From Paracoccaceae bacterium (GTDB taxonomy: Bacteria; Pseudomonadota; Alphaproteobacteria; Rhodobacterales; Rhodobacteraceae): a stretch of 41,395 nucleotides of DNA. Made by a program: the position numbers and the translations under genes. The notes below the pieces were generated by a model. The model saw only the letters and a list, made by a program, of their open reading frames with translations, did no database searches and was not told where the DNA came from. The stretch lies in contig SKRW01000067.1 of the NCBI GenBank assembly GCA_007118295.1, positions 1-41,395 of the forward strand, read 5' to 3'. Shown piece by piece: positions 13,784 through 33,883 of the stretch (position 1 is the stretch's first letter; every line of letters starts with the position of its first letter).

Positions 13784-13818
13784 AAAAAAACGCCGCGCAT
13801 GCGGGTAGCATGGCGGCG
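13784..13818 (-). terminator. Rho-independent terminator (minus strand) after the 33-aa small-protein gene
   Basis: Minus strand CGCCGCCATG ctacccg CATGcGCGGCG followed by TTTTTTT. Confidence 0.8.
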
Positions 13819-13851
13819 AGAGGCTTGGGTCAGGCAGTGAGCGAGCAGTGC

Positions 13852-13953
13852 TCAGGCAAACAAGGGCAGATGAAGCATAGCCACGACCAGCACTGTCAAC
13901 GCCAGACCACCGGCCAGATCGCGCCAGAAATCAGAGGGAACATTGCGGAACAT
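13852..13953 (-). CDS. 33-aa single-pass membrane small protein, putatively SOS-regulated
   Basis: Hand translation MFRNVPSDFWRDLAGGLALTVLVVAMLHLPLFA*; SD GGAG 8 nt upstream of ATG; flanked by its own promoter and terminator. Not listed in the ORF track. Confidence 0.75.
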   Translation of the reverse strand: MFRNVPSDFWRDLAGGLALTVLVVAMLHLPLFA

Positions 13954-13982
13954 GGCAGTCTCCATCGCTTGTTTGTTGCCAT

Positions 13983-14012
13983 ATTGTTCTCATATGTCCG
14001 CAGGCCTGTCAA
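13983..14012 (-). promoter_or_regulatory. Putative sigma70 promoter for the 33-aa small-protein gene
   Basis: Minus strand TTGACA (14012-14007), 18-bp spacer, AACAAT (13988-13983). Confidence 0.55.
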
Positions 14013-14027
14013 GAACATTTATGGAAC
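14013..14027 (-). promoter_or_regulatory. Putative alphaproteobacterial LexA (SOS) box GTTC-N7-GTTC
   Basis: Minus strand GTTCCATAAATGTTC abutting the -35 element; perfect match to the alphaproteobacterial LexA direct repeat. Confidence 0.6.
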
Positions 14028-14028
14028 A

Positions 14029-16119
14029 TCAGCCAATCGAGAGATAGCGGATCGCCCGGTCCTGTTGCATCAGCCACAGCAGCACCCGTGCTGCCTGCCC
14101 ACGTGGACTGGACAGGTCGGGGTCATCGGCCAGCAATTTGCGGGCATCCGATTGCGCCAGCGCCATCAACCCGGTCTGACGTTCCAGATCGGCCACGCGA
14201 AACCGGGGCAGACCCGATTGCGCCGTACCGATCAGATCGCCCGCACCGCGAATGGCCATGTCCTCTTCGGCAATGCGAAAGCCATCTTCGGTATCGCGCA
14301 GCAGCTTCAGGCGGCGCGACGCTGTCTCGCCCAGGGGGGCCTCATAGACCAGCAGACAGGTCGATGCCGCCGCCCCGCGCCCGACGCGCCCGCGCAACTG
14401 GTGCAACTGTGCCAGCCCGAAACTCTCGGCCCGTTCGATCACCATGATCGAGGCATTGGGCACATTCACCCCCACTTCGATCACGGTTGTCGCGACCAGC
14501 AGCTTGGTATCGCCTGCGACAAACCGGGCCATTGCGGCGTCTTTCTCGGCAGGGGGCAACTGACCGTGCACCAGCCCGACCACCCCCTCGCCCAGTTCGG
14601 CGCGCAGATGGGCAAAGCGTGCCTCGGCTGCGGTCAGGGTGCTGACCTCGGATTCCTCGACCAGCGGACAGACCCAATAGGCCTGCCGCCCCTCGGCAAT
14701 TGCCTTTCGCAGATGCTGCACCACTTCGGCCAACCGCGCGGTCGAGACCAGCGCCGTGGTCACGGGCTGGCGACCGGGGGGCTTTTCGTCCAGCACTGAC
14801 ACATCCATATCGCCATATTGCGCCAGCGCCAGCGAGCGCGGGATGGGGGTTGCCGTCATGACCAGCATATCGACATTGTCGGCCTTGCCTGCGAGCGCCG
14901 CGCGCTGCGCCACACCAAAGCGGTGCTGTTCGTCGATGATCGCCAGCCGCAGATCGGCAAATTCGACGCCTTTCTGAAACACGGCATGCGTGCCCAGAAT
15001 GATCTGTGCGCGCCCTTCTGCCACATCGTCGCGTTTGGCAGCACGCTCGACCCCCTTGTCACGCCCGGTCATCAGCGTCAGCGTGACACCTGCCGCCTGT
15101 GCCAGCGGGGTCAGGCTTTCCAGATGCTGGCGCGCAAGGATTTCGGTGGGGGCCATCATCACCCCCTGCCCGCCTGCCTCGACTGCAGTCAGCAGCGCCA
15201 TGAACGCGACCAGTGTCTTGCCCGCGCCGACATCGCCCTGCAGCAGTCGGTTCATGCGCCGTTGCGCGGCCATATCTGCCGTGATCTCGGCAATAGCGCG
15301 GGTCTGCGCGCCCGTGGGGGCATAGTCCAGCAGCGCCAGAACGCGCGCCTGCAATGCGCCCGTGCCCCGGCTGGCCTGTCCCGGCTTGCGGCGCTGGCGC
15401 GCGCGGGCCAGCGCAAGGGTCAGTTGATGGGCCATCAATTCGTCATAGGCCAGTCGCTGGCGCGCGGGGCTTGCGGGGCTGAGATCGGCCAGGCTCTCGG
15501 GCGCGTGGGCGGCGCTCAGGGCTGTGCGCCAGTCGGGCCAGCCTTCGCGCGCGATCAGGGCCGTGTCGATCCATTCCGCCAGATCCGGCGCGCGCGCCAG
15601 CGCAGCACTTGCGGCCTTGGCGACCAGTTTCTGCGTCAGACCTGCCGCCAGTGGATAGACCGGCTCGACCTGCGGCAGGGTGTCGCCTTCGTCGGAGCGC
15701 AGGATGTAGTCGGGATGGACCATCTGCGCGATGCCGTCGAACAACTCGACCTTGCCCGAGACCAGGCGATTTTGCCCGGTGGGCAGGATTTTTTGCAGGT
15801 AATCCCCCCGCGCCTGAAAGAACACAAGCTGAAATTCCTGCACCGAATCGTGCACCTGCACGCGGTAGGGCCGCCCGCGCGTGCGCGGGGCCTGATGCGC
15901 ACCGATCGTGACCTCGACCGTCGCCATGGCCGGAAAATCCAGACCCCGGATCGTGTCGCGCCGCGTGCGGTCGATCAGATTATGCGGCAGATGAAACAGC
16001 AGGTCGCGCGGGGTTTCGATCTGCAACGCTTCAAAATTTCTGGCCGTTTTCGGGCCAATCCCATCCAGCGACTCCAGCCCCGCAAAAAGCGGAAACAGGA
16101 TTTCAGGCCGCGCGGCCAT
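14029..16119 (-). CDS. recG: ATP-dependent DNA helicase RecG
   Basis: LLQGDVGAGKTLVAFMALL, IIDEQHRFGVAQR (DEQH), MTATPIPRSLAL, HQLRGRVGRG. Confidence 0.97.
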   Translation of the reverse strand: MAARPEILFPLFAGLESLDGIGPKTARNFEALQIETPRDLLFHLPHNLIDRTRRDTIRGLDFPAMATVEVTIGAHQAPRTRGRPYRVQVHDSVQEFQLVFFQARGDYLQKILPTGQNRLVSGKVELFDGIAQMVHPDYILRSDEGDTLPQVEPVYPLAAGLTQKLVAKAASAALARAPDLAEWIDTALIAREGWPDWRTALSAAHAPESLADLSPASPARQRLAYDELMAHQLTLALARARQRRKPGQASRGTGALQARVLALLDYAPTGAQTRAIAEITADMAAQRRMNRLLQGDVGAGKTLVAFMALLTAVEAGGQGVMMAPTEILARQHLESLTPLAQAAGVTLTLMTGRDKGVERAAKRDDVAEGRAQIILGTHAVFQKGVEFADLRLAIIDEQHRFGVAQRAALAGKADNVDMLVMTATPIPRSLALAQYGDMDVSVLDEKPPGRQPVTTALVSTARLAEVVQHLRKAIAEGRQAYWVCPLVEESEVSTLTAAEARFAHLRAELGEGVVGLVHGQLPPAEKDAAMARFVAGDTKLLVATTVIEVGVNVPNASIMVIERAESFGLAQLHQLRGRVGRGAAASTCLLVYEAPLGETASRRLKLLRDTEDGFRIAEEDMAIRGAGDLIGTAQSGLPRFRVADLERQTGLMALAQSDARKLLADDPDLSSPRGQAARVLLWLMQQDRAIRYLSIG

Positions 16120-33163: not shown

Positions 33164-33883
33164 CTAAAGCCGCACCTGCGCCAGAATATCAAGCAGCAGC
33201 GTTGCAAACCCGTCATAGCCGTCATTGGCATGGAATCGGCGCAGATGGCGCTCGATCATCCCGCTAAAGGCCACTTCGTCACAGGCTGCAATGTCGAAAT
33301 CGATGACCGAGACATGACCATCGGAGGCCACACTCAGGTTGCGGCCATCCGGGTGCATGTCCAGATGAATGACCGATGCCGCGCGCATCTGCGCCACGAT
33401 CCGGGCCACCTGCCCTGCCATGTCCGGCACCTCTAGGCGCGTGCCCTCCTGCACCAGTTGCAACACTGTCGGCCCCTGATGGGTGATCTCGAAGGCGTGA
33501 TCCTGCGGCTTTATGGCGATGATCTGCGGGAAGTGCGGGCGCGTTTCCCCTGTCACACGCGCAAGACGCTGCAGGCACTCGCATTCCAGATACAGCGCCT
33601 GATCGGCGGTCAGCCCACTCCACAGCAGGCGGTCGCGGGCCGATTTCCACAAGGTCGCGCGCCCCTTGCGGGGCTGCATCTCGGGGACAAGGGCGTCAGC
33701 CTGCAGCATGATCGGCGGTTGCGGGCCGTGACGTTCGACGGTCTGCAGACGCGCGCGCAGGAACCCGATCTCGCGCAAGGCCGCCAGATGGCGCTGCTTG
33801 AGTTTCGCCTTCTTGCGCGTGAGCGCCCGAACGCGCCGGTTCAGCCTGCGTTCGGCATCGGTTTCCGGCGGCGCGTCAGTCAC
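33164..33883 (-). CDS. Small protein-kinase-fold-like protein
   Basis: [31 protein letters not shown] resembles a kinase catalytic loop (HxDxxxxxxN) plus a DFD metal-binding motif; coiled basic N-terminus. Confidence 0.6.

Follow-up and report, generated by a model that had tools for sequence, protein, structure and literature searches.

A conserved microprotein gene under predicted LexA control adjoins recG in the Rhodobacteraceae and may encode an SOS-induced division inhibitor

Members of the Rhodobacteraceae rank among the commonest bacteria of marine and alkaline waters. No account of the way in which they pause division when DNA is damaged was found in the open-licence literature. A short locus from a Paracoccaceae bacterium (GCA_007118295.1, contig SKRW01000067.1, 41,395 nt, hereafter the window) raises this question, together with the more immediate one of what a LexA-type box set against the promoter of a very small gene might control. 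The initial annotation had described, between recG and trmFO, a 33-aa membrane protein with a LexA-type box and a transcription unit of its own, and had likened it to the division inhibitor SidA of Caulobacter. A near-universal SOS gene without a model in the family libraries would provide one testable candidate for the way in which these bacteria delay division.

All elements of the locus lie on the minus strand of the window, and the box, promoter, GGAG, 33-aa ORF and hairpin with T7 tract were each found where the initial annotation had placed them. LexA operator 1 (GTTCCATAAATGTTC, 14013–14027), an exact GTTC-N7-GTTC match, begins 1 nt past the stop codon of recG (ORF at 14029–16119), the conserved upstream neighbour that adjoins the peptide gene throughout the family. 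The operator abuts a −35 hexamer, TTGACA (14007–14012), which is separated by an 18-nt spacer from the −10 hexamer AACAAT (13983–13988); with 10 of 12 matches, this promoter is the sole call of the promoter scan in the region, against 0.1 expected in shuffles. A second, inverted box (GAACAATATGGCAAC, 13975–13989), with the form GAAC-N7-CAAC and one mismatch, overlies the −10/start region as a probable LexA operator 2. The sequence further reveals a GGAG ribosome binding site (13960–13963), followed by the ORF MFRNVPSDFWRDLAGGLALTVLVVAMLHLPLFA and its stop codon (13852–13953; ATG at 13953, TGA at 13852), which encodes a single predicted membrane helix. Folding identifies an intrinsic terminator at 13784–13818, composed of an 11-pair hairpin with one bulge and a T7 tract (−19.5 kcal/mol, z = −5.0), left uncalled by a simple terminator scan. 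The promoter and terminator scores agree with the earlier proposal of an independent transcription unit, and gene, operator, promoter, terminator and predicted helix, as well as the conservation described below, are established by computation.

The box taken by itself is not significant and proves nothing. GTTC-N7-GTTC occurs twice in the window, with 0.76 occurrences expected, and 96 times genome-wide, compared to 118 for a reversed control pattern, in line with the caution originally attached to an 8-base motif. The second exact match in the window (33839–33853, plus strand) has a GC-rich spacer and falls within a minus-strand ORF (33164–33883), off any promoter, in keeping with a frequency close to chance level. 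That the motif alone does not outnumber its control pattern is what would be expected if a meaningless ORF happened to lie beside a chance 8-base motif. Such a coincidence, however, does not account for a peptide, an operator, a second box and a position that have all been kept in about 270 genera, or for the coding-type substitution seen in the peptide. We regard it as extremely improbable, and as ruled out by the conservation of peptide and operator.

It is the conservation of the operator that sets this site above chance. An exact GTTC-N7-GTTC box is found upstream of the gene in all 79 loci selected by the peptide alone, including the 20 taken last, which were mid-ranking and previously unexamined matches (20/20), as opposed to 1 in 140 control windows of equal size from the same loci; among the peptide-selected loci, the stretch GTTCTT(G/T)AC is nearly invariant. 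The reverse approach, in which GTDB genomes were scanned for GTTC-N7-GTTC-TTNAC-N14-20-GAGAACA, returned at least 118 stretches. Among the 118 matches listed, 107 are situated no more than 150 nt from a recG 3′ end, and about 110 are followed by an ORF of suitable size that encodes D-x-x-G. The named genomes among the listed matches are nearly all Rhodobacteraceae, including Roseovarius, Sulfitobacter, Ruegeria, Paracoccus, Celeribacter, Rhodobacter and Planktomarina, as well as "Rhodobacteraceae bacterium GEM2.Bin58" (L104). Two listed matches outside the family (Eubacterium and an actinomycete bin) lack such an ORF and are attributed to chance. None of six viral matches to the operator pattern carries such a peptide, and a phage or plasmid origin was rejected, the peptide being found in none of the phages or plasmids searched.

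The identity of the box as a LexA target is further indicated by its distribution in the source genome, where copies of it stand immediately before lexA, recA, uvrA, and UvrD-like and MmcB-like genes. The identity of lexA was confirmed by profile TIGR00498, and the remaining genes are what we take them to be from reading their sequences, rather than from profiles. The box of the MmcB-like gene, presumably encoding a DNA-repair protein and recognised by eye, lies near position 1242 of L074 (contig C246), and two further boxes with AT spacers, on different contigs of this genome, share the sequence GTTCACTTTATGTTC (L072 at 1492, contig C235; L073 at 1501, contig C298). With one box on the promoter of the peptide gene and others before SOS genes, the gene has the features of a LexA regulon member. 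GTTC-N7-GTTC is the published LexA motif of Caulobacter (PMC12700426), and the lexA and recA genes of Dinoroseobacter shibae have been reported with such sites (PMC6473078). As judged from comparative genomics, LexA control of the gene is near-certain, and there is very good support for calling its product a LexA-controlled membrane microprotein; from this conservation one would infer that LexA binds the site and that DNA damage induces the gene.

The second, inverted box had gone unnoticed in the initial annotation. A GAAC-N7-NAAC sequence lies downstream of the first box in 79 of 79 loci, at a fixed distance of 23 nt in 70 of them, and is recovered in 0.9% of shuffles of the same stretch. 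It usually takes the form GAAC-N7-CAAC, one mismatch from an inverted LexA box, and becomes a perfect GAAC-N7-GAAC in four diverged loci (L226, L228, L231 and L234), making it a probable LexA operator in its own right. Furthermore, in 93 of 116 pattern-selected loci among those listed, though not in the window, an additional GTTC half-site precedes the first box by 10 nt. A single box is the rule in Caulobacter, where it is found at about 97% of SOS promoters (PMC12700426). The combination of a double operator and an upstream half-site suggests unusually tight repression, as would befit a product that is harmful in undamaged cells.

The peptide is broadly distributed in the Rhodobacteraceae, understood here in the GTDB sense. 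Among 35 other genomes of the same genus, it was detected in 34 (E ≤ 0.003, one of them doubtful), with recG and trmFO on either side in every case where both were readable. A first profile, built on 30 sequences, matched 178 of 296 genomes of the order, and a broader profile matched 271 of 299 Rhodobacteraceae genomes in a sample of about one genome per genus, amounting to ~91% of the genera sampled. Family members span 31–47 residues and lie directly 3′ of recG. Neither of two outcomes that the initial annotation had named as refuting, a peptide or a LexA box that is not conserved in relatives, therefore applies. Of the recG–trmFO arrangement, the link to recG is conserved across the family, and trmFO as the next gene within the genus. 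Outside the Rhodobacteraceae, no credible profile match was obtained in a 289-genome sample of the class; a wider class distribution was rejected, the matches being weak and short and mostly inside long unrelated frames. Among 20 profile-negative genomes of the family that were examined, the recG 3′ end was readable in 15. In eight of them (L226, L227, L228, L230, L231, L234, L237 and L238), a GTTC-N7-GTTC box still precedes a small hydrophobic ORF that has diverged, and the profile count therefore understates how widespread the locus is. One (L236) is doubtful, and the other six have neither the box nor such a peptide after recG, so the locus can be lost. L236 and L238, from very AT-rich genomes with RecG proteins 40–44% identical, retain LexA-like half-sites and a small hydrophobic ORF next to recG, with a peptide that has drifted past the profile.

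The constancy of the recG linkage invites the interpretation that the peptide is a RecG-linked membrane factor or, more generally, a membrane protein that is induced in the SOS response and works with another system, for example by modulating a membrane kinase (CckA-CtrA), a protease or an envelope-stress sensor. A connection between SOS and CtrA signalling in the Rhodobacteraceae lends this some plausibility, since LexA of Rhodobacter capsulatus represses cckA according to work cited in PMC6473078. The gene, however, has a promoter and a terminator separate from those of recG, and the 28 recG 3′ flanks inspected in other families contain neither a linked box nor a small membrane ORF (0 of 28 in each case). 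A role of this kind, taking RecG and the other systems named together, is unlikely.

The gene evolves in the manner of a constrained protein-coding sequence. Entropy by codon position (0.63, 0.29 and 1.22) follows a coding pattern and, as read from a dN/dS of about 0.27 in the less saturated pairs, the peptide is under purifying selection. Across 60 sequences from the family, D12 and G15 are invariant, L19, L27 and P30 are near-invariant, and a uniformly hydrophobic core separates the conserved D from the conserved H; most relatives are 38–42 residues long and carry K and R ahead of the helix. AlphaFold2 models a single helix over residues 8–32 (mean pLDDT 90.5), and a single-pass membrane location is predicted. 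The original description of a 33-aa membrane protein fits both the ORF and the predicted helix with its apolar core. A one-sided conserved face of the helix was rejected, the conserved positions defining no significant single face (p = 0.22). No credible match for the peptide was found in Pfam, NCBIfam, PHROGs, PADLOC or the PDB, and no paper naming the gene was found in the open-licence literature.

The best mechanism for this peptide is, by analogy and with somewhat better than even confidence, that of a division inhibitor resembling SidA and YneA, both of which are small, SOS-induced single-TM inhibitors of division acting on FtsW (PMC4211646; PMC13396833). On this model, LexA bound to the double operator, over the −35 and the −10/start region, would keep the gene silent. 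Upon DNA damage, active RecA would promote LexA self-cleavage, allowing the independent promoter to fire a short monocistronic mRNA. The peptide would then enter the inner membrane through its one helix, with the N terminus probably inside, given the conserved basic residues ahead of the helix in most relatives. There its most likely binding partner would be one of the proteins of the complex that synthesises the septal cell wall (FtsW, FtsI or FtsN), and binding would halt division until repair is finished. Division arrest and its target are proposed by analogy only. The LexA-type operator, the double box, the presence in ~91% of genera, the purifying selection and the invariant D and G all speak for this reading; the six readable profile-negative genomes without box or peptide and the lack of a significant helix face speak against it.

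The known inhibitors provide both precedent and contrast for the proposed division inhibitor. SidA, at 29 aa, acts through FtsW and DidA through FtsN (PMC4211646), and YneA binds TM7 of FtsW, as SosA, ChiZ and SidA are predicted to do (PMC13396833). Like the peptide, SidA of Caulobacter crescentus is an alphaproteobacterial, LexA-controlled small protein of the inner membrane (PMC4211646; PMC12700426), a location that is predicted for the peptide. The likeness is one of description (control, size and predicted topology), and the peptide is not assigned to the SidA family; the double operator and the recG linkage, on the other hand, are features of the Rhodobacteraceae family. YneA of Bacillus subtilis, SosA of Staphylococcus aureus and ChiZ of Mycobacterium tuberculosis, which are induced by DNA damage and stop a late step of division, share with the peptide their small size and single TM, but a LysM domain is present in YneA and ChiZ and an extended region in SosA, whereas the peptide is almost helix only. 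The YneA TM alone binds FtsW yet leaves division unblocked (PMC13396833), a result that counts against a division role because the peptide is nearly all helix, although it is not fatal, since SidA has just 29 aa. SulA is likewise an SOS-induced division inhibitor, the role proposed here by analogy, but it is a soluble inhibitor of FtsZ. The peptide has no Pfam match to SulA, and profile PF03846 gave no match in 21 relatives, with a positive E. coli control; with SulA missing from these relatives, no known inhibitor appears to fill the role. In its broadest form, the proposal is that an uncharacterised microprotein family is the central SOS checkpoint on division throughout the Rhodobacteraceae, governed by a conserved double LexA operator, contacting the divisome through one helix and having evolved independently of SulA, YneA and perhaps SidA; we consider this evenly balanced between true and false. 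If division arrest is correct, the family would supply an independent case for SOS inhibitors acting on the septal synthase via one membrane helix, with the emerging one-helix rule satisfied in almost the smallest form possible.

A peptide of this kind could instead act on the membrane itself, in the manner of TisB and DinQ of Escherichia coli, lowering membrane energy and leading to dormancy rather than to a specific arrest of division. The helix of TisB is charged and amphipathic, and this feature was not seen across the 60 sequences of the family, with their uniformly apolar helix core, invariant D and G and near-invariant P. TisB and DinQ do resemble the peptide in size, single membrane helix and LexA control (PMC8145889; PMC3567139), and a tight double operator would suit a toxic product. 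Both act by depolarising or modulating the membrane and are held in check by antisense RNAs, whereas in the peptide family the core is apolar, D, G and P are conserved, and no antisense RNA is known. Membrane depolarisation is for these reasons an unlikely function, and division arrest is retained as the preferred one.

Whatever the target of the peptide, the conserved double operator lends itself to studying how the arrangement of LexA operators determines when toxic SOS genes are switched on. A further arrangement of half-sites is apparent within the gene itself, where the first codons of the ORF (13938–13951, minus strand) contain GTTCCGCAATGTTC, a GTTC-N6-GTTC sequence that may be either a LexA half-site pair or a coincidence.
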